From the NCBI GenBank assembly GCA_028554645.1, contig JAQOOI010000021.1, forward strand, positions 2,604,001 through 2,668,000: a DNA stretch of 64,000 bases, in the 5' to 3' direction. Below are positions 3,902-40,400 of the stretch, one piece after another (within the stretch, counting starts at the first letter, position 1; each line of letters begins with the position of its first letter). The notes below the pieces were generated by a model. That model did not search any database and was not told the origin of the DNA. It saw only the letters and a program-made list of their open reading frames with translations. A program made the translations under genes and the position numbers. Source of the stretch: Omphalotus guepiniiformis (Eukaryota; Basidiomycota; Agaricomycetes; Agaricales; Omphalotaceae).

Positions 3902-5281
3902 TCAATATCTACTGCGATGCGCAGCATCATCCTTCCGGCTGTGTCCGCTTTGCTCGTTAGTATACAAAACAACAGCATCGGCAATGTCCTTCACGCTGCG
4001 TCCGCTTTGCTGAGCGACTTCATACACAATACAGAGCATCGTGTCCTGGAGCTGTGCCAGGGTGGTAGGCGTCCATATGGCGCTCATATCAGGCCTCACC
4101 TTCGATGCCTGTTTCGCGAAAGCCCTGATCATCCGATGGGCATACGGGCCATGGTCCTCCCTATCATGATACAAGGTAGAAGAAGCGAGGAGGATCCTGA
4201 TAGCCTCCACATGCTCGATGGACGAAAGTTGAAAGATGAGGTCGCGGAGGCAAACAAGGACGCAGAAGTCAGAGAGCATTCCTTCCTGGTATAATAGTCC
4301 GATAAAGCTAACAAGTCGGAAAGCACATTGCAAGTATCCTGGCATGCAAGGTTCAGTTGGATTGAAGCGTATCGCAGTGTCATTCTGCAAATCCCAAGTT
4401 CATGAGCGAATCATCCCGTCCACCCAGCGTAAAATGCTTACCTCACGGTGCCAGCACCTCTGAAAAATCCCAAGCACATTCACCTTCAACCCCGTCGCAA
4501 ATGAGTTCCAATTCTCAATCTGTCCCTCTAATTGAAACCGATTTCCGATTTCCCTTGCGAATACCGCGAGCGTGTGCGGATTAACACACGAAAAGGGATC
4601 AGACGCTGGCCAGATAAAATGCCGCGCGAGGTCCAGAAGTTCCTTGATATCCCATTCTCGCGAACGCACCAACGTACTAGCATGCGCCTGGAGCGCATCA
4701 AGCGCTTCCGGCTGCTCCCGTACAGCGATATCGAAAATCTCTACCACCCGAGCCGGCGGGAGGTTGTCCCATGGTATGCTGGCTAGTGGTGACACGGAAT
4801 AAGAATGCGGAGGAGTATAATTGGGTGGCGTAGGATAATTGGGTGGAGTGGTATAAATGGGTGGAGTGGTGTAAATGGGCGGATTGGTATAAACGGGCGG
4901 AGTGGTATAAATGGGCGGAGTGGTATAAATGGGTGGAGTGGTGTAAATAGGTGCGCCGGGACCGCAGGTACCGAGCGAAGCTTTAGGCACAAACACCGAG
5001 GCTTTAGGATCGAGACGCTTCTTCGGTTCAGAGACATGGGGGCACTTTTTGGTATGACCATCCCCGATGGCCAGCATGGCCTTAATGTTCGTGGCAGCAT
5101 GGGGAGGGATGCCATTGTCGTACATTAGCCAATCCGAGTCGAAGATACTGTATTGGTCATCCCTGAAGAGCTTGGTTTCGGGGCACGAGTTTTTTGAGAC
5201 TGGCCTTAAAGAAGCACCGGGTGTGTATAGGTTAATGAAGAACGCCTTCAAGGCATCTCCTTCGGCAGCAGTGTTGAACAT
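3902..5281 (-). CDS. Hypothetical protein with IYTTPP tandem repeats
   Basis: Two exons, 5281-4442 and 4384-3902, joined by a 57-nt intron (GTAAGC donor, TTTGCAG acceptor) that removes an in-frame TGA; product 440 aa. The N-terminal third (to about residue 110) is globular-looking and ends in a lysine-rich patch. About eight six-residue units of the type I-Y-T-T-P-P follow (roughly residues 112-160). The C-terminal half is a helical region rich in Leu, Ala and Glu, for example VVEIFDIAVREQPEALDALQ. No catalytic motif, signal peptide or membrane segment is recognised. The start is the first ATG after the repeat-free N-terminus. Function unknown; it may be a lineage-restricted fungal protein. 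Confidence 0.65.
4813..4955 (-). repeat. 18-nt coding tandem repeat
   Basis: About eight copies of an 18-nt unit (forward strand variants of ggtataaatgggcggagt) encode I/V/N-Y-T/P-T/N-P-P hexapeptides in the gene at 3902-5281. Units vary by one to three bases and keep the frame, as expected for a coding minisatellite that can change copy number. Confidence 0.85.
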
Positions 5282-11205: not shown

Positions 11206-12553
11206 TCACGCGCTGGGGCCAGTCGAGTTGAGATAGTTGGTGTTCGTGATATCATAAGAAGCAGAAGAGTTCACTCCGACCGCTACAACGAACAAAACAC
11301 TCAGACATCGGTAATAAACCACTTTGGAAGGAACTCACTGATATAACCGAGGATACCCTCAGAGATGTCGTCACCGAGAAGCTCGAGGTCGAGGTAGGCA
11401 TCATTTCCATCAGAATTTTCTTGCGCAAGAATGTAATCCCCAGTATTAAGAGTACGATTATTGGTATTCGTGGTGTAAGGTGAAACGCTATAGACCCGGT
11501 CATTCCAGCTCTCGTTGAAGAAGAATTGCCCGATGTGTATGAGAATTCCAGAGTGTGAGATGAGGGTGCTTAAGAAGAAGATTATATCTGAGTCACGCGA
11601 TTCTCAACGTAGAACATAGAGTCTTACCCATTTGCAGCTTCAGTAGTGTTAAGGTGGATCATGGTGTGTATGTGAGCGGTACGGCCTTCGTAAAAGCCAG
11701 GGTAGATGGTGACGAGTTCGACGATACCGTTGTCGTCAGTGGCAAGTCCACCACGCAAAAAGGTTTCATTCCTGACGAGCGGGATGTCAAATGCGCCGCC
11801 AGGTACATCAGTCGGAGAGGAGCCACCACTCGTGCTAGAAGGAGGAGGAGGTAAGCCAGATAAGGTGGCACTGTAGCTTCCGTAGACTCCGGTGGCATTA
11901 GCTATGAAAGATCGATTAATATTGAGTCTTGCAAGGTGAACGCGGTGTACTTGCCACTCCAGATTTCAACGAAGGCGTTCGGAAGCGGCTCGCATGTCGT
12001 GATATCGAGGACACCGATATCCAAGATCAATGAGATTCCCCTGAAACCGAAAGACGTTGACGATACGAGACAAACTCAGGCAGATACTTACGGTTGGGTC
12101 TCAGTCAAGTTTCCACGAACAAGCTCGTTGTTGATGTAGTACGGGCCCTCAGTAACTTCCGGAGCAGTGATGCAAGTGAAGCTATCGAAGCGCGATGGTC
12201 CATTGCCCGTGCTTGACTCAAAGGGAGGCTACGTACTTTTGCAGCTCAGTGAAATGAGGGCTAGAGGCACTAGTGGTGGAGCTCGCCACCTGTCTCTTGG
12301 CAAGAGCCCTCCTGGCTTTTCGTTTGGCATTGAAGGCGGCGACGCTACCAGCGCAGGACCTGGCGGCCAAGTGACGGTGCTGAGCAGCGAGCTCCCGACG
12401 GACGATCTCCGCCTCGCTGAATATTTCGTCAACATCACCGGGGTGAGCTAAAGACACTGGTCAGTGAACAGACCATTGTTACGAACGACATCAACACTTA
12501 CCTGCAACCATGGCAGCAAGGGTGACAAAGGGCAGCAATGTAGAGAAAAGCAT
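11206..12553 (-). CDS. Secreted intradiol ring-cleavage dioxygenase (copy 1)
   Basis: Exons 12553-12502, 12447-12237, 12181-12092, 12040-11955, 11901-11628, 11568-11339 and 11282-11206 close in frame to 339 aa. A hydrophobic start (MLFSTLLPFVTLAAMVAG) is a signal peptide. An Arg/Ala-rich propeptide-like stretch (HRHLAARSCAG) follows, then the core: EGPYYINNELVRGNL, LDIGVLDITTC, ATGVYGSYSA, YPGFY, HIH. The two Tyr (GVYGxY, PGFY) and two His (HIH) match the Fe(III) ligand set of catechol-type intradiol dioxygenases (family knowledge). Likely role: oxygen-dependent opening of catechol-like aromatics outside the cell. Intron 4 (11902-11954) starts with GCAAGT; copy 2 has GTAAGT at the same place. 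Intron 5 has an AAG acceptor where copy 2 has CAG. Confidence 0.85.
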
Positions 12554-12650
12554 GGCTAGAGGCGATTGTTGAGAGCTGGGATGGTTTTGAGTGTACTAAA
12601 CTGATTAAGTGGGAGTACTCGACGCTTTTCTGTTCTTTTTGCCTGCCCTC

Positions 12651-12658
12651 TTTTTATA
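12651..12658 (-). promoter_or_regulatory. TATA box, dioxygenase copy 1
   Basis: TATAAAAA on the minus strand about 100 bp before the start codon, in a stretch conserved with the second copy. Confidence 0.6.
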
Positions 12659-12669
12659 CGCAGGCGTAC

Positions 12670-18883: not shown

Positions 18884-21551
18884 ATGTCGATGCTATTTCT
18901 ACGGGACAACTCTCAGCTAGATCAAGAGTCATCATATGGATACGTGCCTACATTTGCTGTTTGTGTTCTGTTTATCGCTCTCTTTTCGTTGTCTACATGT
19001 GAGTGCCTACCTATCTACCTCGTATTGTGCTCAATACAAACGTCCTACAGTTGTACATTTTGTACAAGCGATATATTTCCGTCACTGGTTCATTCTTCCC
19101 ACCGTCGTGTTCGCTGGTCTTTTGGAGATTCTCGGATGGTCTGCACGACTATGGTCGAGTAAAAATGTTCTAGCTGATGCCCCCTATTCTATTCAGTAAG
19201 CATCTTCACTGTTGAGTGATGTTCAAGCCTCGTAACCTTCTTCTTTGTAGAATCGCCATCCTAATCATCGCACCTACCCCTCTTCTTGGAGCACACTTCA
19301 TTATATTCAGCAGAATAGTTCAGATTCTTGGCACACAGTACAGTCGTCTCTCACCAAGACTTTGTAAGGAAATTAGTCTCTACTGTACTGCCTTGACACT
19401 TACTTCAAATTATATTCGCGATACAGATGCAAGACTATTTTTAACCTGCGTACGTTTTCTACCCGTGTCCCTGTTCGTGAAACTTACGTGTGTTGCATAT
19501 TCAGGATATCATCTCTCTCTTTGTCCAAGCGGCGGGAGGTAGTTGGGCTTCCAGCAGTGACGATGATTCCGATTCTGATGATTCCAGTGATATTAGCGTC
19601 AAGGGAGTGAGTAGTTGAACCACTGTCTACTGTATCGATTCATTCTCATTCTCATTTGAACCTGTCTTCTTTCAGGGAACGGATCTTATGCTAGGTGGTA
19701 TAGGCTTCCAGCTTGGTACGGTCAACACGAATAGGCAATGAACAGGATTCCTGACTTTTTTTTTCTCTTACAAGGTGTCATCGTGACGTTCGCCATCCTC
19801 GTCACTGAGTTCTTGATCCGATACGTGCATGACAGACCTGTACGCCGTTGATGTGCTTGGTATGGGGTATGAATGAGAAGAAGTGCTAACTAACTCGAAT
19901 GAATCTATCAAGCACTCAAAACACACACACAGCACACAAAGACTTTTAAGTTCGTGGGGTTTGGGGGACTAACAAACTCTGTGAAGCGAATAAGGTTGTT
20001 GTAAGAGGAACGCGGAGACACAGTCAAAACCGACGCGGCACAGATAACTCTATGCTACACACCACTCAAACGAACTAACGCGTAACTTTAACAAATCACC
20101 GCGACCAGTGACTACAAACGATACAACAACCAGACGATTGTTGGGAGATGCCAGACGACTTCTCACTTAGTGGAGTTGGGTATAGGAGGATTTCAGAACT
20201 GCCAGACGACGAGTTCAACGAGTGACCAGACGATCCACTCTTATTCGCACTACACACACAGGCTCCGCGGTACCAGACAATCCCGCTTGTAAACACTTAG
20301 GCACACTGACTTATGAACTAACGCGACGGTTAACACTTTAAAACTTCTAATCACTCAGAGGGACTTAAGCTTTTCCACACACAAATGCTATTAGCTCTAT
20401 GGGGGGGCTCGGGAACCTGTCCTTCCTTGCCCAGGTTCTATTTCTTATATACAGTATCTCTATTTACATAGTACAAACAAATGTCGCGATACTTGACAGT
20501 TATGAGATATATGGTGCATATGGTGCACCGCGTAAGGTAGGGATGAAGTATAGTACGCGGTAACAGGGTATCCTATATCGGGTTATAATCTTGCCGCTTT
20601 TAGAAAGTATCGCGGTAGTTCGCTAACGCTGTGTCTCCTTACGTGTTCTACTTCCGCGTCGTCGGAAGTACTTCGTGTTACATCGTACGTCTAGACCCTT
20701 CTGTGGCTCAACAGTGGTCATTAGATATGACTAGTGCACGGAGCTACTGCTACCTGGTTTCTAAGTCTGGCCTTCTGAGTAGTGCCGCGGTACCTCGTTA
20801 CCTACGCGTTGGTTTATACAGTATTGGGGCCATCAAGTTATACACGTCGGACCTTAGAACAAGTGCCGCGACACTTTACTTGAGTGCATACTTAGGTAAT
20901 ACCTACACTGAGAAGACCCATTTAGTGCCGTTCTACAGTCTTGTACACCTTTGTACACATATACTAGTGGTTGAATGTGCGTAATACACCGCGGAACTTA
21001 GGACTATACAGTGTACTTAGTAGGTTTGTACTGGAGTGATCAATCCCGCGAGGCCGAAAATGGTAGTGGTATTCCCGCGGTCGTATCACCGTGTATCCGA
21101 GACCAGTACAAGAGGCGTGCTGGACGTCCGACGAAAATACGCTTTGGTGGCTGTCGCGCTCGCTACCTTTTTCTTGTTTGTGCGGTGAGTAGAATCGCTC
21201 CACGTAAAGTCGCTGTACATGCTGACTTTGAACAACTTCAGAGGTACCTATCGCTTGGTTGAGCTTGGCACTGGATGGGGAGGGCCGGTCATGGATACTC
21301 AATGGCTATTTGGTATGTTTTACTTCCTATGTGATATCACTATAGACTTCAACTCTCTTTCACTGGCATTTTCAGGCTTCTTGGAGGCAGGTATGGTGGT
21401 GTTGGCATTCTACACTTGGAACTTCCTTCATCCTGGTTGGACCTTAAACAAGCCTGCGACATATCCGGTCGCTGATCCAGAAATGTCCTCCTCGTATAGT
21501 GGCTCTGGTGTACCATTGACATATCCTGTCAGGGAGACTGGACCGTACTAG
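18884..21551 (+). pseudogene. RTA1-like membrane protein, split by solo LTR
   Basis: Seven-TM RTA1-like family, implicated in resistance or lipid translocation in fungi. Exons before the insertion: 18884-18998, 19051-19195, 19251-19363, 19427-19449, 19505-19606, 19676-19715 and 19775-19848. After it the same exon resumes at 21089 (VSETSTRGVLDVRR), and two more exons reach the stop at 21551. Conserved pieces: YGYVPTFAVCVLF, RHWFILPTVVFAGLLEILGWSAR, YSRLSPRL, GTGWGGPVMDTQW, AGMVVLAFYTWNFLHPGW. Apart from the LTR and its CCGT duplication every exon is open, so the insertion is the only visible lesion. The loop encoded by exon 5 has an extra Asp/Ser-rich run relative to the intact copy. Confidence 0.85.
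19849..21088 (-). mobile_element. Solo LTR of the 25777-40129 element family
   Basis: A 1240-bp sequence with TGATGTGC...CGTATCA ends and a perfect 4-bp duplication CCGT (19845-19848 and 21089-21092). It matches the two LTRs of the full element over its whole length with scattered substitutions, so it is an older copy, left by recombination between two LTRs. Oriented like the full element (minus strand). Confidence 0.93.
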
Positions 21552-25304: not shown

Positions 25305-25324
25305 AAGCCTTTGTACTCCTACTG

Positions 25325-25331
25325 TATAAAA
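25325..25331 (+). promoter_or_regulatory. TATA box, dioxygenase copy 2
   Basis: TATAAAA about 105 bp before the ATG at 25430, at the same relative place as in copy 1. Confidence 0.6.
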
Positions 25332-25429
25332 AGAGGGCAGGCAAAAAGAACAGAAAAGCGTCGAGTGTTCCCACTTCATCAGTTTAGTACACCTAAAACC
25401 ATCCCAGCTTTCAACAATCGCCTTTAGCC

Positions 25430-28400
25430 ATGCTTTTCTCGACATTGTTGCCCTTTGTCACCCTTGCTGCTATGGTTGCAGGTAAGTGTCGATGTCGTCC
25501 GTAATGATGGCCTGTTCACTGACCAGTGTCTTTAGCACACCCCGGTGATGTTGACGAAATATTCAGTGAGGCGGAGATCGCCCGTCGGGAGCTCGCTGCT
25601 CAGCACCGTCACTTGGCCGCCAGGTCCTGCGCTGGCAGCGTCGCCGCCTTTAACGCCAAACGCAAAGCCAGGAGGGCTCTTGCCAAGAGACAGGTGGCGA
25701 GCTCCACCACTAGCGCCTCTAGCCCTCATTTCACTGAGCTGCAAAAGTACGTAGCCTCCCTTTGAGTCAAGCACGGTGATGTGCTTGGTATGGGGTATGA
25801 ATGAGAAGAAGTGCTAACTAACTCGAATGAATCTATCAAGCACTCAAAACACACACACAACACACAAAGACTTTTAAGTTCGTGGGGTTTGGGGGACTAA
25901 CAAACTCTGTGAAGCGAATAAGGTTGTTGTAAGAGGGACGCGGAGACACAGTCAAAACCGACGCGGCACAGATAACTATATGCTACACACCACTCAAACG
26001 AACTAACGCGTAACTTTAACAAATCACCGCGACCAGTGACTACAAACGATACAACAACCAGACGATTGTCGGGAGATGCCAGACGACTTCTCACTTAGTG
26101 GAGTTGGGTATAGGAGGATTTCAGAACTGCCAGACGACGAGTTCAACGAGTGACCAGACGATCCACTCTTATTCGCACTACACACACAGGCTCCGTGGTA
26201 CCAGACGATCCCGCTTGTAAACACTTAGGCACACTGACTTATGAACTAACGCGACGGTTAACACTTTAAAACTTCTAATCACTCAGAGGGACTTAAGCTT
26301 TTCCACACACAAATGCTATTAGCTCTATGGGGGGCTCGGGAACCTGTCCTTCCTTGCCCAGGTTCTATTTCTTATATACAGTATCTCTATTTACATAGTA
26401 CAAACAAATGTCGCGATACTTGACAGTTATGAGATATATGGTGCATATGGTGCACCGCGTAAGGTAGGGATGAAGTATAGTACGCGGTAACAGGGTATCC
26501 TATATCGGGTTATAATCTTGCCGCTTTTAGAAAGTATCGCGGTAGTTCGCTAACACTGTGTCTCCTTATGTGTTCTACTTCCGCGTCGTCGGAAGTACTT
26601 CGTGTTACATCGTACGTCTAGACCCTTCTGTGGCTCAACAGTGGTCATTAGATATGACTAGTGCACGGAGCTACTGCTACCTGGTTTCTAAGTCTGGCCT
26701 TCTGAGTAGTGCCGCGGTACTTCGTTACCTACGCGTTGGTTTATACAGTATTGGGGCCATCAAGTTATACACGTCGGACCTTAGAACAAGTGCCGCGACG
26801 CTTTACTTGAGTGTATACTTAGGTAATACCTACACTGAGAAGACCCATTTAGTGCCGTTCTACAGTCTTGTACACCTTTGTACACATATACTAGTGGTTG
26901 AATGTGCGTAATACACCGCGTAACTTAGGACTATACAGTGTACTTAGTAGGTTTGTACTGGAGTGATCAATCCCGCGAGGCCGAAAATGGTAGTGGTATT
27001 CCCGCGGTCGTATCATCTCCCCCTGACTAAAATATCGACTGTCCCAGTCGCTGGGGTCCTACTCAGGGTCTATCCCGGAAAGGCGCATCAACCTCCCTTT
27101 TCTGGATATCACAAACTTCTTTCTGACTCATGTAGCGCTCTCCCTCCTTCTTGTCACATCACATGCCATCACGTTACCTTATTGGTAAATCGCCGCGTCT
27201 CTTCATTCCTCATCGTCCGGTTACGTTAGTTCCCGGACATACCGGTTATTCAGTTAATGGATTGCCATCGCTTCTTTGTCAAAGCTGTATGTCGTACCCT
27301 GAATAAGTGTGTAATACATCAAACTTTTGCTCTCGCGTCTTCTAGGAATGGAACTTGATACTGGCACCATTCTGAGGACCCCATCGCCGCGAGGTGTATA
27401 TAACCTTCAGCGCCCGGGTGTCGAACTTCAACTTTTTGCTCCCTCTTTCATCACTGGTTTATGCCTATCAAGGCTGAACCCCTTGACTATAACTCTTTAA
27501 TAGTAAGTGACGCGGTACTTTTTGCGTGTCTTCTTTGCTTAGCTCCGTTTGATAGGCTTTTTCTCCTACTGCTTCTGAGGCCGCCTTTATTATGCTTTCT
27601 TCTCAACCCTCGACTTCACGCGTACACAAACGAAGACGACGCGACGCTTCGCCTCGACCCTCTTCTACTTTGCCTTCCGTCCCGGACAGCTCACAGCGGT
27701 CTATATCCGCCGCGGAGCTTATCTTGCTTGAACAGATCCGTACCGGGCAACTTTCCGTTCAACCTTCCGTGGTACTTCCCATTCCTTCGAACATTCCCGA
27801 GGCTTTAGCACCCGTACGCCGTCGTCGAGAGCGCCGTGATAAGGCTTTGTCTGTTCTCAAGAAACGTCGTGCTCGTCATCCTAGTCAATCTGCTCTGGTT
27901 AGTTCCGCGTTCGTTTTATCTGTTGTATTTAACTAACTTGCGGTAGCTTACTCCCGTTACCGCTGAGGATCAGGCGAAATTCGCCGATGACTTTTTGGCG
28001 TCCCGTGACGAGACCTATTCGCTCCCTCCCGCGACTCCTGTGCCTACTGCCGTTACAACTCGTCCGCGGCCTCCTCGTACTTTGTCTGACTTGGAGCGCC
28101 AACCCTGGCCCACACGTCTAGTAAGTACTCCTTTGTTCCTTGTCTACTAACTCTTCTTCTCATTCTTATCCTTAGTTTGACGACGAGGCGGTCGAGTCTT
28201 CCAACGAGGGCTCTCCTCCTGCTGCCAAGCGTCGCCGTGGCCCTTTGCGCAAACGAGTAGAGAGTGATTCTGAGGCTTCCGCGGTGCCTGATAACTCCGT
28301 TGGTATTGTGGCTGCTGTATCCTCAGTGACGCGAGACTTGCCTCCCACAGCGCCAACTCCTCGCTTCGTGAGTAATTCCTGTTATTCCAACTAGTTTTAC

Positions 28401-31400
28401 TCACTCTACTTCCCAGTCTTTTTCTCGTTCTCCCCCTCCTGTGGACTTATCGCAAGGGTTCACTGTTACTGCCGCGGAACCTTCGGTTCCTACGAACCTT
28501 ATTCCTGTCACTCCTACACGGTCCCCACTGGTGGAATCTGGTCCCGCGCCTCTCACTCCTTCTGGTGTCCCAGCCGCATTTTCTCCTCTGACTAGTACCG
28601 TACCCGTTCCTCCTGCTGTACCTGTGCTACCTTCAACTTCCGCGGTTCCTTCTTCTGTGGCAGGACCCTCGACTTTCGTGGAGCCTCCTGCTACTACTCA
28701 GGTTGGAACCAAGGTGAGTTCCTTCCCTGTTTAAGCTGCTTCGTTGCTTATTTCTTTTTCAGGGCAAAAGAAAAGCTTCGCGGAAGTCTAAACTAGCGAC
28801 AAAAACTACCGCGTCAACTATTCAAGAGGCCGACCGCTTTCGTACTCCCTCTCCTCGCCCAGGCGACCTCGAAACTAGACGTCGGTTTCTTCGTGAAGTC
28901 GAGGGTTACCCCCAATATTGGTACGAGAAAGTTTTCCCCGCCGCGGAGCACTTTGGTGCCTTTATTCCTCACAACCTTCATCCCATCGAGAAGGGGGACA
29001 AAGCCACCGCGGTGCCTACTACCGTAGGTGGCTCTTACGAAGGAGGGGTCCGCTGGTATACGGCTAACAACATCCCCGCAAATGGTTTCATTAACTATGA
29101 CCTACCGGGTATGGTACCTCCGCTGATGACAAGTCACATTCGCCTTCGCCAGATTGTGGCTTCTTCCGTGAACCTGGTAAGTTCTTCGATACTTTTTCTT
29201 CTTACTTCTCTGATTACTTCTTAGCCCTCCATTCGCTGTGGGTCGTGCATTATTCACGGCAAGCCTTGCGTCTTCGTCAAGGCCGGGGAGTCATGTAACG
29301 AGTGTCTTAGCAAGAAGGACTCCGCGTGCACCTTTCGTTATGGGATTCGCAAGATCGCGTTGGAGGATGAAGCTTTTCACAACCGCGGACTCTTTTCTGC
29401 GCGCCGTATGTCTTCTCCCTTACTACTTTCCCTTTTCTCTGATCTTTCCTTTAGATGCTATGTCTCTGCAACTTGAAGCGTCAATGCTTACTGACCGCTT
29501 GAATGAACAAGTTGCCGCGATGCACGGTATTCAGAAAATGGCTCAAGCCAAGATCGACGAACTCGCGGATGTTTTAGTACAGGGTTACTATAACTTCGGT
29601 CGCGACTATTTGACGCAGGTCCGCCTTAGTGGTGACCTTGCTCAAATGATTGTGGATGAGAAGATCCTGCCCGCCATCGAGGCTGGGCAGCTCAAATCAA
29701 TCAACGCGGCATCCGAACATCAGGCATATCAGAAATAGTGGTCCCTGCCTTCTCTGTTCATTTTCTTGCTCTGGTTCCGCGGAAGTAAAAGCTCTTAGTC
29801 TCGTAGTGTTTGTAGTATCGCGGAGCTTGTTTTTTCTTTATTTTATTACTTGGAAATGTTATTAGCTTTGTCTCGAGTGATTTTAAACTGTGTGACATTT
29901 TCCTTGTTCTATAAAATCGAAAATATTCAAGAACTTCTACGCGGCACTTTTCCCAAATTCACGCGATTCTACGCGGTACTAAACTGTACGCGGTGCTTTC
30001 TATTCCTACGACCCTTCCCCATCTTTGAAATCACAACTGTCCCCAGTTGTTCAGAACACTCGCGACGCTTGGTAAAGTACCATATGTTCCACCGCGTCAA
30101 CTTTGAAGGACGGTGCGCGGAATTAGAATTCTACGCGGACAAGGTTCCTTCTGGTCCAGACTGCCCTGGCCAGTTATAAAAGGACCTCCAAACACTAAGT
30201 TCTTCCTATCTGAATCACTTATGTCTACTGATACTTCTTCTGTTGACGTCCAGTTTCTCGTGGAAGAGGTAGCACCTCTTTACAAGTCGTTTAGCGAGCG
30301 TCGAGTCAAACGTGGTGCCGACGATGCTAATCGCGTCGCGATGTCGTGTGCACAAAAACTCGCAAGTTTTCTAATGTTCTGCCTTCTGTTCCTGCGCCTT
30401 ACTTCACTCTTTTTAGCTCGAGCTCTGGAAAGCTCACCCTGATGCCGCGTTGGCTAACGCTGACATTCGTACTTTCACTCTGTTCTTCTTTGAACAACTG
30501 CCGCGGGACCCAGTTACCGCGAAGTATACACCAACTCATCATTTACTTGGTCCGTACCGCGGTAAATGTGTTCAGTTTGGTAAACCCAAGGAGGTTCCCA
30601 AAGTCGCCGCGGCTGCTCCTGTTCCAACTGCTGTAACCCCAGCGCCCGTCAAAGGCAAAGGTCGCGTTCGTACTAGCCGCCGCGTAAGTAATCAGTTCTT
30701 TTTCTTGAATAACCACTGGTATTAAAACTTTTTCCTAGATTCGCAAGCGTATTGCATCCCAAGCTCGTATTGATAGTAGTGACGAGGAGGTTGACGACGA
30801 CGCGGCGGGTAGCGATATTGCTATGGGTGACGATGAATCCCCCTCTATTGCAGATTCCACTACTAATACCACGGTAGGTCGCCACCCTACCCCGAGCCAG
30901 CTTGCTCTGTTGCTAAAACTATGTACCTCGCTTCAGACTCTCGACCTCGCCGCAGTTGAAGAAGTTACCCGCGTTGCCCCCTTTACTCCAAAGGTTGAGC
31001 CTAGCGTCGCGGCAGTTAAAAGGGTACGACCACCATTCCTTCTCCCAATGTTATTCTGACATAACGCTCCTTTCATAGCCTCACGCGTCGACTAATCACC
31101 CCGTAAGATATCTCCACTTTTCTGAGATACCACGCATGCTTATTACTTCACGGCAATACCTTAAGGCAGTTGCCGCGGTGGATAAGAGTACCATCAATCC
31201 TCCTGCCAAGAAAGCTAAGATGGAGGTGGTTAGTGTCGCGGCAGCTCCTCCTACTTGGGCGCACAACTTCTCTATGCTCGATCCACCTCTGGCACCCCCT
31301 AGTACGTGTCACGTTTTCATACTGCCGCTAGCGACTTTTCAACTAACCTATCTTTTGGTAGACCCTGTCTCCACTTTCTCTAACTCGGTTGTGCAGTCAC

Positions 31401-34400
31401 TCGTTGATCGTGCCAATCTCGCGGTGCTCGAACCCGTTAGTGGGCCTACTGATCGTAGCCTCACCATGCTGGAGTTCGAGACTCGCTCTAAACTTATCGC
31501 GGTCAACCATCAGATCAGTCTCCAGCTCCAAATGCGGGATTTGCTGATGAAGAGCTACCAGAGCATCGCGTCGCAGCAGAAGGAGCTGGTTAATAAAACT
31601 AACGTTCCCCTTATCGATATGACTGGCGACGAAGATATGCCCTCCGTGACTGATACTTGAACTGCTTCTGGAACTTTTCTTGTGCTTCCGCGACACTTTT
31701 TAATCTTCTTGTCGTGAATAGAGGTACCGCGTAACTTTCCGTTTCCCTTCCGCACTTGTATTCAACTATCGCGTAAACTTATTTATTTCCAATTTGTCGC
31801 GTATATTTCAACATAACACGTACAGATCATACACTCGTTTTTATAATAAAACTGCCATGTGGCCCTATCTTTTGAGTGATTTACTGAAAGATCTTCGGCT
31901 TCGATATCCAGTGCTTCGCGTCGTATACTGAAACGTCCGCGTGAATTTCACCATCTAGGTCTGCTTGATCGTGTTCTACGGATAAATCTTCTTCTTCTTC
32001 TTCTAGACCTTGTTCAATTCTCAACAAGCCATCTTCTGACAAACCAATCAACTCACTTAGGTTCTCAGGGAGTTCAATGTGCGACCTTGGCCAATATGGA
32101 ATTACGCGGAAGGCTCCGATTTTATTCTGGAACACCGCACCATTTAGGTCTGCCACAATGTAACTGCCACCTGTGGTACGCCTGAGTACTACCATAGGTC
32201 CTAAATAGCGCGGCTTCGTTTTAGAGTTCAAAGATTTTTCAATCTGAGTATTCCTAACTAATACCAAACTACCTGGCTTAAACGCGTAGTCCTTAATAAC
32301 ATACTTATACTCTTTTTCGAACTTCAACAACCGTGACCTTTTCTCGCGTGTTACGCGTTCCCGCAATTCAACTACGTGCTTCGCGTGCTTAGCCAATGCT
32401 TTCGCCCGTAGTCCAATTAGTTCCGCGTCACTTATGAAATGATCAGGATATTCTACAAGCCATGTTGCCTCAACGATATCAAAAGGTAGCGAGGGGTGCG
32501 CACCAGTTACTGCGAAGAATGGGGAGCACCCAAATCTCTTTCTTATGGTACACCTATCAGCCCACATTACTAAGTAGAAATAGTAAAACCATTTTGAATC
32601 GTCACCTCCCGCGGCCTTTATGAGACTGTGTCGCACATCATAATGCGCGTGTTCCACGATACCGTTGGCTTGGGAGTTATAAGGTGATATGCGAATACCG
32701 CGCACGCCATATTTCTTCTCTAACCATTCCAACGCCTTTAGAAAAGGTCCGCCATTATCTGTTACTATCTCTATAAGACAGCCCCAGCGGCATATAATTT
32801 CTTCCCACAACCACTGCCCAATCGCTCTTGCGGACTCTGCTTTCAACGGTCTTCCTTCCATCCAGCCGGTTAACGCGCACCTACCATGTACAATCAGCTT
32901 GTAGCCATTCGACGCCGGCATATACATGGTGTCAGCGTGAATTTTCTGAAAGATTGACGGTGTCTTCGTCTCGGTAGGAGGAATCCTGATCTTTGTCTTT
33001 TGTCTTACTTGGCACGTATGACAGGTCTTCACATACTCATAGATGTCTTTCTCCATTTCAGGCCACCAAAAGCGTTCCATAAGTAAGGATTTAGTAGCGA
33101 AGAAGCCGCGGTGCCCCAGACTATCATGACAAGCATGGATCATGGCGACGCGACGCGACTTCTCAACTACCAGCTTATGTTTTGCCTCAATTCCACGTCG
33201 ATAGAGTTTTCCGTCTTGTATAAAGAAGTTCCGCGCTAACCTTAAAAAGTTCTTGAAGCGTTTGTTATTCTCATAGCCTACAGGCCTCTTAGAAGTGTCT
33301 GTTAGCCATTTGAAAACCTCCGCGACTGTTTTATCTTGGTTTACCGCTCCCTTCGATCGCTTAGACTCATCATACTCTGTTTCGTCAATATGCTCTGGTG
33401 GCTCCTCGAGTTCTGGTACTTCACTAGCCAATTTCGCGGCTACAAACTGTTTTACTTCTGGTATGTCGCGGAACTCTCGTTCTTGCTTATAAGCACGCGT
33501 CAATTCTTCCTTAAAGTCGTCTACTGACGCGGCTAAACCAGTCATATAATTACTTTTCCATTCTTCTTTCTCATCAACTAATACGTGTGCGTAACCATGC
33601 TTAGAGTCGATCTTATCTACAAACTCCTCTAATTTGTAGGGTTCTTGAACTTCACCATCTTCAGGATTGTCATACTCATCATCACCTACTTGCTTATCCC
33701 GCCGTGATAGTCCATCAGGTCCGTGAACCTTGCCTGGTACGTGCTTCAGTTTAAAATGAAACATCATGATCGACTCTATCCACCTATTTATCGCGGCGTT
33801 TGGCATTTGATCAGGATGCTCTAACATGCCTTTAATGTACTTCGCGTCAGTTTCGATTATAAGGTTGCGAATACCAAACAACCAATACTGGCACGCTCGT
33901 AACGCGCGATACAAACCAAACAACTCCCGTTTCGGCTGTGAAAACCTAGCTTCGCGATCACTTAGTGTAATCGAACCGAATCTGGAGTAGAACCTTCGTC
34001 GCGGATTCTCTGGATCCACTTGACAAATATAGAACCCAACCGCTTTCCACGACGTATCTACTGCCAATATAACAGGGTCTTCCACATCATACTTTAGTGG
34101 TCGTAATGCCTTGCTATTCTTTACTGCCTCTTTCAACTTTGCCAACGCGTCACTTTGCTCTTGTCGCCATTCGAACGGAATATCTTTACGCGTAAATCGG
34201 GTTAAAGGCTCCGCGATCTTTGCATAGTCTTTGACGAACATTCTTACTAGTCCCGCGGTGCCTAAGAATGGTCTTATATCCTTCTCTTCTAGGATATTCT
34301 CAGGTCCACCCCAGTTGGTAATAGTTTTCGCTCGTTCCGGGTCGATCTCTCTCCCTTCTCGTGTACACCTATGTCCGACCACGGTAATCTCGCTTTTACA

Positions 34401-37400
34401 CAATACAGCTTTGGGGCCTGAGAAAGTCCCACCACAGTACTTCATTCTTTGAATGACCCTATTCATATTGGTGAAATGTTCCCAAATAAACCTCCGTATC
34501 CCATCATTACCAGGAATGGTCTCGTACGTACCATCTTCACTTTGATAAGTCGTTTCAGGACCGCGTACAGGAACATCATCGATGTATGGTTGCGTAAACT
34601 CCGGGATCTCTTCTTGTAATATGTGTGTTACATCATCGTGGAAGATTGGTACTGAATTCGTCCATCCCATCGGTAGTGTTACTAACCTCAGGGCTCCAAA
34701 GGGAGTCTGGAATGTAGTTAAGTCTCGCGATGCTATTGCCAACTCTCTTTCATCATAGCCAACATATAAATCTAGAATTCCTCCACAAGCTCTACCACAG
34801 AATTTCTCCGCGAGCTCTTCAGTAGCAGGCGGTATACCAGAATGTGCTATTGTTACCGCGTTCAACGGTTCCAAACTATGTACTAGTCGAATACTCTTTC
34901 CGTCTTTCTTTAACACCGCGAACCACTTCGATCGGTAAGACGAGTTCGATGGTTCGTAAACTCCCGCGTCAATCTTTCGTCTAACTGCCGCGCATACTTC
35001 ATTAAAAATACCAGGGGGAATAGGAATGTTCCTCTCAACCCAAGGTGTATGAGGTATCACGGGCATCTCTACTGAAGGAAAGAAATCTGTTCTGAATCTT
35101 CCGCGTTCACTGTCGTCCCACGCGAACCCTTTCTCTTGCTGCATCATCATATGATGCATCAACTTCCGTTCTTCTGGCCAAAGGAATTCTTCCTTATGTA
35201 TCTCGTCTATTATCTCTTTACGTTCCTGAGTATACCTACCAGTCGGCGTGAATTCTGGAGGATTAGGCGAAAGCTGCGGCATATCAGCCAATGGATCTCC
35301 TTTAATCTCTCTTATGATTCTAAACTTCGATGGTAAATCTCCTAGAACAGGGCGTGTTTTCAATGCGACAGGTTTGTATTTCTTCCCTGCCAAGATACTA
35401 ATTGGTTCGTAACGTTCCTTCCACAGCCGCGACGCGTGCCTCCTCACTTGATCTTTCATATCAGGGGATACATCAAGCATCGCGATGCTCCTTACATCAA
35501 ACAGGGGAATTTGCTGTAACTCTTCTACGCCGTCTTCTAGCTCTACTTCTTGCACCGTGAAATTTGCTTGAGAGTACGCGGCAGGATTTTGCGCTCCATA
35601 CACCGAACTCAAATAGGATCTCAATACGGGTCTCGTCGTTTCTTTATCACTTTTTAGATCAATATACTTTTCCACGGCAGATAAGTATAGATCGCGTAAC
35701 TCTCGCTTCTCAAACTTTGATTTTTGCTCTTCGTTTATATCTGCAAATACTACATCACTTATGCCAATGGGAATACCTTCGTCATTTAATTCAAAAACCA
35801 CCGCGGCTTCTCCTTGATCTGGGATCAATTCCTCGAAGCTGCTGAAAAACCCTGAGTCTGTTCCTTGTCTTTGCTTATAGGTACAGAACCTTTCCCTCTC
35901 TCATAGGTAGGTACAACAGCTCGCTTCTTAGTGTTAGGGTCCTGAATAACGAGGTCCTGCGTTCCATCTGCATGATTATCCACTAAACTCTCCGTGATCG
36001 TGTCAAAAGGCCGTCCCAGTAGCAATTCATATGCGGGGTCTCGAATTACATGTACTTGTAAGTACACGGTGATTCCGCCTAGTAAGAATGGTACATTACG
36101 TGCCAATCCCAAAGACTTCTCAACACCCTTGTTAGCCGATTGCATAAAGATTACTATGTCCGGGTCCCACGATAAACCTGCTTCGCGAGCTCTTTTCTCC
36201 GATGTAGAGATAATCTGTGAACCCGAGTCTAGTAGACTTTCGATCTTCGCGGTACCATTTACCAAAGGATACACGCATCGAAGCGACTCTGAATCTCTTG
36301 CCACGTAGATCTGAATTGGGTTATCTTTGCTTCCCAGGCTTTCCACGTACTGTTCAACTGGATCGCTAATCACAACTGCTCCTGCTGGAAGATCTCCTTC
36401 CGCCTGTTTCAGAACAAAAACTTCCGCGGTGACATTAAGGTCAGCTAACGCGACTGTATTTGCTGTTACGTGATCCTCTCCTACATTTTCCTCGCTAAAA
36501 GGTAATAGGGGGCTTTTGGCTAGGATCTCTCTCAAACCTCCCGCGGTCTCTTCAGGCTTCAATTTGACTCTTGACTTGATCGTTCCTCTGAGTGAAATTT
36601 CTGATTCCACTACTGTTTCTTCCGCGTCAGGATGTTTAGTTAATGGAATAACAGGAGACTCCGCGGCCTTCTCATTCCTTGTCTTCCAAATTATCCCCCT
36701 TGGGTTCTCTAACCGCTCTTTCTGAGCTTTCAGTTTCTCTTGCTCAGTTGGCGAATACGACACATCAGGTACGTTCGCGTAAGGAACCTCTGGTACGCGG
36801 CTCTTCTTCACTACTGTAGGTAGCGGAGGCATCTCGACACCATCGAATCTCAAACGTTTTTCCCTCTTGACCAACTCCTTATACTTATCTTTCTCTAGGC
36901 TCGCGTCCTTCTCAGGTTCCGCGTCCTTTTCTTTCCACAACCGTCGTTCATTACCCTTGTTTTCAGTATCGTTCTCAGGTGCCGCGGCCCTAACAGGATT
37001 TTTCTCTTTTGTAGGGGCCTGGCTTTCCATCCTCGAACTTACCGAAAACCCTCCTCGAACCTTCCTTTCTCATTGTTACTAACTGCCACGTTACTTATTG
37101 AATCTCTTGCCGACCCTCGAATATAGGCCGCGCTGAGATTGGATTCTAACACCCTTTCTTGAGCACGCTTCGCCTCTTCATATTCTTGCCAAACTCTAGT
37201 GTACTGTTTATTGTACGACTCGACCTCCTCTAGTTGCATCTGTAGTACCTCAACCTGAGAAGCTTGTACTTTCTTTTCAGACAGTCTTCGATCTACAAAG
37301 TCTTTCTGAGGAGGCCCATTTGGAGCTTTCTGTGCTACTGGCTCTCCATCTGGCATGCAAGTGATCCCTTCTTTCAAAATGATCTTTCCATCATCTACGT

Positions 37401-40400
37401 ACTGCTTGCGTACCATACATTGCCCTGCCATATGTCCGTTTAAGCCACAGAACCAACACGTCGCGGCTCGAAAGTAGTCGGGACGGTTGTCATTCAACGC
37501 GGTTCTCCCATAGTCCCGCGGCGCCATATATGGTATACGTTCTGGATGCCTGGTACCGCTACTCGTTCCAGGTGCCGCGAGCTTTAATTGCTCTAGCAGT
37601 TTACCCATCATTTCTTCTTCTCTCGCGGCTCTCTGGGTAAGGTTCTTTGTTTGGATCGTGATTAGATCTTTCAATTCCGCCACCCATCCTTCCGTTTGCT
37701 CATGCTTCACTTTTTCTACCCTCTTTCCTCTATCTTCCTTCGCGGCCCTTACGTTCCCAAGACTAATTACTTCCTCAACCTGAGATCTCGCGTTAAATTC
37801 TGCCTCGTCCAGAATCTCTTCTGCTGTATAGGCATCATCTCGCGGTCTAGCTTCTGCAGGTGGGTTCGCACGCTTTTGTAACTTCAAAGTCAACGTGATG
37901 GATCTCCAAAATTCATCTTCAAACATTCCGCGGAGGACTCTGACAATTTCTCTGTTAGTATACAACGCGGTCGTAGTGTAGTGCTTAAGGAACGGCCGTA
38001 GGGTATTCCTCATTCTTAATACATCTTCGAGATCTTCCATCGTTATATTCTTATACTTCTTCGCGGCTCTTTCAAATTTTGCGAAGGAGAAAGTTCCCTC
38101 GTCCGATCCTCCATCATAACTCTTCAAAATCTCGTCGCGGAACTCGATAAACGTCCCTTCCTCTTTCTCGTACGTAGGCAACGCCTTCCATTGTTCTCTT
38201 ATAGTTGCGGGTAGGTAACGCAACGCGACTGATTTCTTATCCGCTTCTTCCTCTATTTTGAAATCTTGGATAATATCCTCAATCTCCCCCAGATAGTCTC
38301 TGACGTCGTCTACATCATGATCGCGACGCAAATCTGGTGCTCCACGTTCTCTTCTCCTCGGAATCTTATCCATAGCCGGCATTTTTATGATATTTTCTTG
38401 AATTATAGGTAAATTAGGTGCAGAGTTCGGTGAAATATGTAAATCAAATAGAAGTGTGTGGACTTCGGATAGTTCCTCGTCCGAATGAGAATGTCTATCA
38501 ATAGTTGGTGGGACTACTGAGTTTCGACGCGACGGTGGGTCTGGCCTAGGAAATTGAATTGAAGTACCTTCTCCGTAATCAGATAGTTCTTCGTCAAAGT
38601 TCCGCGACTGTCTAATACTCGAATCTTCCGCGTCAACTACGTTAATCGATTCTCGGGGTTGAGCAACAACTTCAGGATGTGACTTCCTGTAGCTACTAAC
38701 TCTTTTGATTGCCTTTGCACGTGCTAACGACTCTCTGGTATTCTCTACCGTTGAAGGCCGTGAACTTCGTCTAGACGTTTTGTCTGATTGTTGGTTAGAC
38801 AACCGCGACTATAACTCTTCGGTCTCGTACGAAACCTAAAACACTTCACTTAGTTTATTAATCAGAAACCCCTCGCGGTGGGCTCCAGATGATGTGCTTG
38901 GTATGGGGTATGAATGAGAAGAAGTGCTAACTAACTCGAATGAATCTATCAAGCACTCAAAACACACACACAACACACAAAGACTTTTAAGTTCGTGGGG
39001 TTTGGGGGACTAACAAACTCTGTGAAGCGAATAAGGTTGTTGTAAGAGGGACGCGGAGACACAGTCAAAACCGACGCGGCACAGATAACTATATGCTACA
39101 CACCACTCAAACGAACTAACGCGTAACTTTAACAAATCACCGCGACCAGTGACTACAAAACGATACAACAACCAGACGATTGTCGGGAGATGCCAGACGA
39201 CTTCTCACTTAGTGGAGTTGGGTATAGGAGGATTTCAGAACTGCCAGACGACGAGTTCAACGAGTGACCAGACGATCCACTCTTATTCGCACTACACACA
39301 CAGGCTCCGTGGTACCAGACGATCCCGCTTGTAAACACTTAGGCACACTGACTTATGAACTAACGCGACGGTTAACACTTTAAAACTTCTAATCACTCAG
39401 AGGGACTTAAGCTTTTCCACACACAAATGCTATTAGCTCTATGGGGGGCTCGGGAACCTGTCCTTCCTTGCCCAGGTTCTATTTCTTATATACAGTATCT
39501 CTATTTACATAGTACAAACAAATGTCGCGATACTTGACAGTTATGAGATATATGGTGCATATGGTGCACCGCGTAAGGTAGGGATGAAGTATAGTACGCG
39601 GTAACAGGGTATCCTATATCGGGTTATAATCTTGCCGCTTTTAGAAAGTATCGCGGTAGTTCGCTAACACTGTGTCTCCTTATGTGTTCTACTTCCGCGT
39701 CGTCGGAAGTACTTCGTGTTACATCGTACGTCTAGACCCTTCTGTGGCTCAACAGTGGTCATTAGATATGACTAGTGCACGGAGCTACTGCTACCTGGTT
39801 TCTAAGTCTGGCCTTCTGAGTAGTGCCGCGGTACTTCGTTACCTACGCGTTGGTTTATACAGTATTGGGGCCATCAAGTTATACACGTCGGACCTTAGAA
39901 CAAGTGCCGCGACGCTTTACTTGAGTGTATACTTAGGTAATACCTACACTGAGAAGACCCATTTAGTGCCGTTCTACAGTCTTGTACACCTTTGTACACA
40001 TATACTAGTGGTTGAATGTGCGTAATACACCGCGTAACTTAGGACTATACAGTGTACTTAGTAGGTTTGTACTGGAGTGATCAATCCCGCGAGGCCGAAA
40101 ATGGTAGTGGTATTCCCGCGGTCGTATCAACGGGCAATTTACCATCACGCTTCGATAGCTTCACTTGCATCACTGCTCCGGAAGTTACTGAGGGGCCGTA
40201 CTACATCAACAACGAGCTTGTTCGTGGAAACTTGACTGAGACCCAACCGTAAGTATCTGCTTGAGTTTGTCTTTTTTGATCGTATCGTCAACGTCTTTCG
40301 GTTTCAGGGGAATCTCATTGATCTTGGATATCGGTGTCCTCGATATCACGACATGCGAGCCACTTCCGAACGCCTTCGTTGAAATCTGGAGTGGTAAGTA

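Follow-up and report, generated by a model that had tools for sequence, protein, structure and literature searches.

We analyzed a 64,000-nucleotide stretch of contig JAQOOI010000021.1 from the fungus Omphalotus guepiniiformis (the window), which contains a Ty3/gypsy-type long terminal repeat (LTR) retrotransposon carrying two predicted multi-intron genes antisense to its own pol. An initial annotation of the window had proposed a 14-kb element of this class, and our results bear this out: the element measures 14,353 bp, its paired LTRs end in TG..CA, and it is flanked by a short target duplication (4 bp, ACGG). Pol appears to follow the Ty3/gypsy order of reverse transcriptase (RT), RNase H and integrase, with RNase H (residues 554-689) and an integrase zinc domain (889-944) both scoring above their Pfam cut-offs, and the RT identified by eye from YIDD at residue 415; the Pfam scan of pol did not report RVT_1 itself. 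Because the two LTRs differ by two gap columns only, with no substitutions, we consider the insertion very young. By eye, the element looks as though it splits a host gene. No direct repeats of at least 60 nt were found inside it, and an Rfam search gave no match. Features are collected in Table 1.

Between pol and the 3' LTR, on the strand opposite to pol, lie the two genes that the annotation had predicted to encode proteins of 633 and 404 amino acids, with reading frames that continue across seven and four introns; these exon chains were reproduced. When trained on the window genes, a gene finder recovered all eleven introns, with intron 1 of gene 1 in a shorter form, and added two in the spacer, through which it merges each pair. 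The shorter form uses an acceptor at 27555 and extends the gene 1 protein to 641 residues in an equally open frame; the gene finder prefers it. In one diverged copy (L040) the gene finder omits the cysteine exon described below, which a protein-to-genome aligner includes. Intron 1 of gene 2 is GC-AG in the window, L010 and L015, and GT-AG in four of six aligned copies (L016, L020, L022 and L023). TATA boxes had been placed 46-60 bp before the start codons; both boxes are there, at 46 bp for gene 2 and slightly outside that range, at 64 bp, for gene 1. The gene 2 box is present in six of seven diverged copies, being missed by exact-match search in L020, and that of gene 1 is readable in just one of the seven (L020). 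Introns carried antisense would be expected to survive retrotransposition on general splicing grounds, and their presence in the copies agrees with this. The annotation knew of no described fungal pair with a zinc-cluster protein, and we found no description of a fungal antisense pair in the open-licence PubMed Central (PMC) literature.

Table 1. Coordinates of the retrotransposon and its antisense genes within the window
Feature	Position	Strand	Remarks
Whole Ty3/gypsy-type element	25777..40129	-	14,353 bp; 170 CGCG sites
3' LTR	25777..27016	-	1240 bp
Full palindrome AAGNNNCGCGNNNCTT in LTR	26788..26803	.	second copy in 5' LTR, 39902-39917
TATA-like box, gene 1	27397..27403	+	starts 64 bp before ATG
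Antisense gene 1	27461..29738	+	633 amino acids, seven predicted introns
Gene 1 exons	27461-27502, 27580-27897, 27947-28120, 28176-28367, 28417-28713, 28763-29176, 29225-29405, 29455-29738	+	
Full palindrome, gene 1 intron 1	27505..27520	.	
Gene 1 exon 7, six-cysteine cluster	29225..29405	+	best conserved exon; dN 0, dS 0.97 versus L022
TATA-like box, gene 2	30175..30181	+	starts 46 bp before ATG
Antisense gene 2	30221..31660	+	404 amino acids, four predicted introns
Gene 2 exons	30221-30361, 30417-30683, 30739-31023, 31079-31301, 31362-31660	+	
Pol frame	31881..35828	-	YIDD (RT), RNase H, integrase zinc-binding domain
Protease-like frame	35825..37030	-	aspartyl protease match E 7.5e-5, slightly below Pfam cut-offs
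Gag-like frame	37039..38802	-	CCHC knuckle by eye
5' LTR	38890..40129	-	1240 bp

Searches of the genome (42.5 Mb, 80 contigs) showed that the element belongs to a family with many copies. Among 44 listed matches to the 4.9-kb cassette holding the gene pair, 15 cover at least 85% of it (13 at 95-100% identity and two at 86%, the window included), and the best 35 of 620 candidates for the window pol include 30 matches at 96-100%, of which 20 span the full length. Both antisense frames are open in all three near-identical copies tested (L010, L015 and L016). These copies carry too few changes for informative ratios of nonsynonymous to synonymous divergence (dN/dS: gene 1, 0.62 in L016 and 0.69 in L015; gene 2, 0.16 and 0.97), L010 differing from the window by a single change per gene. 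Against diverged copies, dN/dS of gene 1 was 0.088 (L020), 0.090 (L022), 0.166 and 0.167 (L039 and L040, where dS is saturated at about 2.3), and that of gene 2 was 0.130 (L020), 0.233 (L022), 0.215 (L023), 0.121 (L039) and 0.128 (L040). The gene 1 comparison leaves out L023, L041 and L043, in which single frameshifts remain and the aligner is imperfect, and values for exons 4-5 of L022 are unsure, its model having two non-canonical donors there. In exon 7, the nonsynonymous difference (pN) from L039 and L040 was 0.09-0.10. Both antisense genes are thus under purifying selection relative to diverged copies, and the open frames in near-identical copies together with this low dN/dS argue that the pair is more than a product of chance. 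Recurrence and selective constraint, the checks suggested with the annotation, both came out in its favor: the pair recurs in many copies in this genome, with dN/dS of 0.09-0.23 and no neutral decay.

A further property of the element, new in this analysis, is an excess of the palindrome CGCG along its entire length. CGCG occurs at 11.8 per kb in the element (170 sites in 14,353 bp) and 3.0 per kb in host DNA (114 sites across 41,000 bp of flanking sequence, and 44 across 12,000 bp taken from four other host stretches); with one LTR counted, 154 sites are observed where the host rate predicts 39. G+C content is 0.469 in the element and 0.475 in the flanks, and CpG observed/expected is 1.12 and 0.96, respectively. 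The extended words CCGCG/CGCGG are 10-fold enriched over the flanks, the boundaries of the enriched zone coincide with the element ends, and a solo LTR at 19849-21088 forms a second island. These words reach 7.2-12.8 per kb at the listed cassette loci and 0-1.1 per kb at eight other gypsy pol loci, three of which are nearly CpG-free. CGCG sites within the element tend to have AAG flanking one side and CTT the opposite side, a preference that host CGCG sites do not share; such palindromic flanks fit a dimer.

The excess is present in coding and noncoding DNA. Relative to synonymous shuffles that keep protein sequence and codon usage, CGCG is over-represented in all five coding regions (z 3.7-8.4), with counts of 47 versus a shuffle mean of 16.9 in pol, 12 versus 4.1 in the protease frame, 18 versus 6.3 in the gag frame, 22 versus 11.2 in gene 1 and 17 versus 8.7 in gene 2. 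No such excess is seen in seven mechanically listed host frames (z 0.0-1.6) or in five pol frames from other retrotransposons (z -2.2 to -0.8). Ranking of words in the window-family pol placed CGCG and CCGCG at the head of their lengths, in unbiased lists that leave out L007, L008 and part of L003. In noncoding parts, CGCG reaches 12.9 per kb in the LTR and 20.7 per kb in the spacer between the genes; spacing of sites is slightly more even than random (coefficient of variation 0.84 versus 0.86-1.14). The CGCG excess therefore goes beyond coding need, and base composition or codon bias is disfavored as its source because shuffles keeping codon usage fall short and host frames lack the excess. 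A longer palindrome, AAGNNNCGCGNNNCTT, occurs at 141 sites genome-wide (reversed control, 52); among 50 sites listed, 38 have words that occur in the LTR or gene 1 intron 1 of the window family (family A) and 12 do not. We rejected this strict 16-bp palindrome as the sole unit: it is too scarce, and looser forms must account for the majority of the 170 CGCG sites.

Selection on the motif is argued most strongly by the fact that its density is kept while its positions turn over. Gene 1 carries 22 CGCG sites in the window and 25 in L040, five of them in the same column, between types that are 57% identical with silent sites saturated; the L039 type likewise has 25, with four in the same column. 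Each of the three counts is about twice the shuffle mean.

A sister family in the same genome, with pol 52% identical to that of the window, contributed five matches to the window-pol search; its own pol as query yielded 30 matches at 93-100% and four fragments at 94%, among the best 45 of 596 candidates. The annotation had regarded absence of the cassette from related elements as damaging to its proposal. The sister has an antisense pair of its own at the same place: two predicted multi-intron genes between pol and the 3' LTR (L048), in models that depend on the gene finder trained on window genes. On the reverse strand of this region the gene finder returned frames of 28 and 17 amino acids only. 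Sister gene 1 has the cysteine pattern C-x2-C-x8-C-x11-C-x2-C-x6-C right behind a predicted intron, as in window gene 1; homology between the two gene 1 proteins was rejected (hhalign probability 0.4%). Pol matches at C31:123339 and C35:193812 each have, roughly 1 kb away, a stretch (C31:124395 and C35:194843) that matches the C-terminal part of the sister gene 1 protein at 48-49% identity, and further families may on that account carry antisense genes.

The sister family lacks the CGCG motif and is enriched instead in CTAGACC, which occurs 14 times in 10.4 kb of the sister, three times in the window element (13.1 kb), and not at all in 53 kb of host DNA or 28 kb of other elements. Across the genome, the word CTAGACCC is found at 1449 sites, compared with 1096 for the reversed control. 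In one sister copy on C14, five CTAGACCC sites fall in the interval from the last LTR site (32936) to the pol start (36633), where 0.13 are expected; the sister sequence examined directly corresponds to just the last ~460 bp of this interval. A copy at C12:660525-674312 has a layout like that on C14 and is not independent, and a relative with 72% pol identity (C6:100260) has one site within 7 kb among the CTAGACCC matches listed. Other loci in this 72% pol group are C69:81471, C21:174407 and C78:629592. A related family with its own protein thus appears to have a different motif, in a case that comprises one sister family and is weaker than that for CGCG.

Both families contain gene 1 types that are ~57% identical on an otherwise near-uniform chassis. 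Comparing variant copies L039, L040, L041 and L043 to the window in 150-bp bins, we found identities of 97-100% upstream of gene 1 (68-92% in L041), 43-74% through gene 1, and a rise through the spacer to 92-100% from 30427 on, the exception being L043, which is unrelated from 31177. Over gene 1 residues of about 240-480, matches fall at 83-97% or 49-56%, with nothing between. Matches to sister gene 1 that reach at least residue 450 comprise six at 90-100%, 28 at 52-58% and six at 38-49%; for the last exon of sister gene 2, 35 of the matches listed start at residue 236/237 with 86-99% identity, 32 of them at 95% or more. Sister copy C20:67887 is a mosaic, 91% identical over residues 176-313 and 57% over 302-556, and exchange therefore occurs within gene 1. 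Old types on one chassis would follow from an advantage of rare types or from recurrent exchange among old lineages.

The gene 1 cysteines are spaced C-x2-C-x6-C-x8-C-x2-C-x7-C and are invariant across the four types compared, an arrangement that we take to fit the Zn2Cys6 rule (Zn_clus, PF00172). Of the zinc-cluster identity originally assigned to one protein of the pair, this spacing stands; the Pfam match does not, scoring 11 bits with 13 positions matched where the cut-off is 21, and we rejected gene 1 as an established Zn2Cys6 member, the assignment coming from the cysteine spacing alone. Pfam assigned no family to gene 1 or gene 2, TRP28 (PF04195) was not matched by genes 1 and 2 of either element family, and a PDB profile search with gene 1 gave two matches only, both unrelated (E 1.2 and 1.8). 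In the database searched with pol, which itself had 1618 relatives among 8000 candidates scored, residues 340-633 of gene 1 had no relatives at E 0.001 and gene 2 had none at E 1. These absences are weak evidence because metagenomes often miss intron-rich genes. The closest pol relatives were two proteins at 65 and 62%, followed by Lentinula edodes (60%) and, lower, Armillaria ostoyae (57%), both mushroom fungi; no pol relative was found in a viral collection. At its N terminus (27461-27502) gene 1 reads MPIKAEP, containing what we presume to be a sumoylation-type site (IKxE), whose residues are invariant in the four proteins compared. PLIDMTGDED near the C-terminal end of gene 2 (31600-31650) resembles, in our estimation, a motif that interacts with the small ubiquitin-like modifier (SUMO), and we liken TIKTE and SPLIIEDDDDDD in the sister genes to sumoylation-type and SUMO-interacting motifs.

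The copies also bear marks consistent with CpG methylation, a silencing-like pressure. Among 95 singleton changes in 12 near-identical cassettes, 41 of them supplied by L016, 32 are C>T or G>A at 654 CpG positions and 12 are C>T or G>A at 4208 other positions. CpGs within CGCG mutate like other CpGs (11/240 versus 21/414, p 0.85); long-term retention of the motif would therefore reflect selection and not a lower mutation rate.

We propose, with a probability of roughly 0.4, that in this retrotransposon clade the antisense genes form an accessory module whose target is the element DNA itself. The proposal draws support from selection on both genes, the same layout in the sister, the motif excess with its turnover of positions and palindromic flanks, the different sister word and the CpG-type decay of copies, and the dispersed motif gives added weight to a role in regulating the element or its silencing, as the annotation had suggested. 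The gene 1 protein, probably a dimer formed via the cysteine cluster and following exon, would bind many palindromes along the element, with the gene 2 product as a possible partner; the bound proteins would keep family chromatin open or promoters on, a sequence-specific anti-silencing like that of VANC for VANDAL transposons. Antisense placement would let both genes retain introns and use their own promoters. Motif binding, dimer action and an activating effect are what we infer from these patterns. More tentative is the wider idea of a clade-wide antisense self-recognition system, in which fast-evolving DNA-binding proteins and a family-specific palindrome, coding DNA included, would free or control each family with respect to host silencing while old gene 1 types coexist per family.

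Several observations weigh against this proposal. The Zn_clus score of gene 1 is below threshold, the gene 1 proteins of the two families cannot be aligned, and gene 1 is damaged in some of the copies (in L020, at the intron 4 donor). The motif follows family and not gene 1 type, both types of family A sharing it, and could also serve a host protein or RNA. CGCG is sparse in the antisense introns (two in 601 bp); it is only modestly better conserved than other CpG words (odds ratio 1.7, p 0.012, in L039 and L040 pooled, which are non-independent), and not so in L020; and its mutation at the same rate as other CpGs means that no protection from methylation-type mutation is visible. In the sister, the pol-only CTAGACC excess (z about 4-6) does not exceed that of some control words (CCGAGG in L002, z 6.2), and the window-family LTR itself contains one CTAGACCC.

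Motif and genes could instead be unrelated, the motif being a host-factor site or having a genomic-RNA role such as dimerisation or gag packaging, and the proteins acting otherwise, for example in host interaction. No result links protein and motif directly, motif density is independent of gene 1 type, and the motif runs throughout the genomic-RNA content, where a palindrome can pair as well; we nonetheless find this explanation rather unlikely, since a sister in the same nucleus enriched in a different word is unexpected for a common host factor, and the motif is symmetric on both strands. The proteins might alternatively bind the motif to restrain the element or its competitors, diverged gene 1 types spreading by escaping resident repression. 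Deeply diverged types on a near-uniform chassis in both families are expected under such a rare-type advantage, and one sister copy is mosaic within gene 1; yet types that share a motif would not differ in DNA specificity, and the many nearly identical copies indicate that residents did not block recent spread, which makes self-limitation distinctly improbable. That the genes are captured host passengers, with the motif arising incidentally from base composition or codon bias, is largely refuted and has very little left in its favor. Genes 1 and 2 have no Pfam function or database relatives, which leaves room for such an origin; set against this are the low dN/dS across large divergence, an antisense pair in the corresponding position of a family with pol 52% identical, G+C and CpG values near those of the host, and the failure of codon-usage-keeping shuffles and host frames to reproduce the excess.

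The anti-silencing proposal has a precedent in the VANDAL DNA transposons of Arabidopsis, for whose VANC protein binding and demethylation have been shown (PMC5735166, PMC10398659). As there, an element-encoded protein appears to go with a short motif that is dense in the family's own copies and rare elsewhere, and motifs differ between related families. VANDALs are DNA transposons, whereas the element here is an LTR retrotransposon with predicted proteins; the VANC motifs are concentrated in noncoding tandem repeats, whereas ours is dispersed through coding and noncoding DNA, in an element with no internal direct repeats of 60 nt or more found. Retand and other plant Ty3/gypsy elements have antisense open reading frames (ORFs) at the same place, between pol and the 3' LTR, suggested to encode DNA-binding, element-regulating proteins (PMC11963269). 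These mostly contain TRP28, which Pfam did not detect in the window genes, each of which has several predicted introns; the element-wide motif of the window family has no counterpart for Retand-type elements in the available portion of that source. Fungal DNA transposons carry TET/JBP dioxygenases, accessory genes proposed to counter methylation (PMC12730594); they share with our pair their residence in fungal mobile elements and differ in being enzymes of DNA transposons.

The placement of the window pair recalls yet another system. HBZ of human T-lymphotropic virus (HTLV)-type retroviruses is an antisense-strand regulator encoded near the 3' LTR. It is one gene of an animal retrovirus, and we know of no link to a dispersed motif; the likeness is one of position and strand, and we claim no sequence relation. 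HTLV antisense genes have been mentioned alongside the plant antisense ORFs (PMC11963269).

The VANDAL DNA transposons of Arabidopsis have been shown to counter silencing in a sequence-specific way (PMC5735166). If our proposal is true, a fungal retrotransposon has reached the same solution again and has forced its target motif even onto sequence that encodes protein. A testable function would then also be at hand for the antisense genes of Ty3/gypsy elements, which have an open role in plants too (PMC11963269). The two gene 1 types per family provide natural material for function tests.

Three gypsy loci in the genome, L004, L005 and L006 (C43:113812, C43:126373 and C53:186485), belong to a family whose pol frames are open over 1191, 1191 and 1318 amino acids and whose CpG observed/expected is 0.13-0.14, versus 0.91-1.10 in L001-L003, L007 and L008. 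They are nearly CpG-free, as if methylation targets had been shed. The solo LTR in the window differs from the element LTRs by 12-13 substitutions and has a 4-bp duplication, CCGT. Beside the element, a 453-nt inverted duplicate of a host gene (12207-12659 and 25324-25776) is 95% complementary, and its right arm stops precisely where the element inserted.

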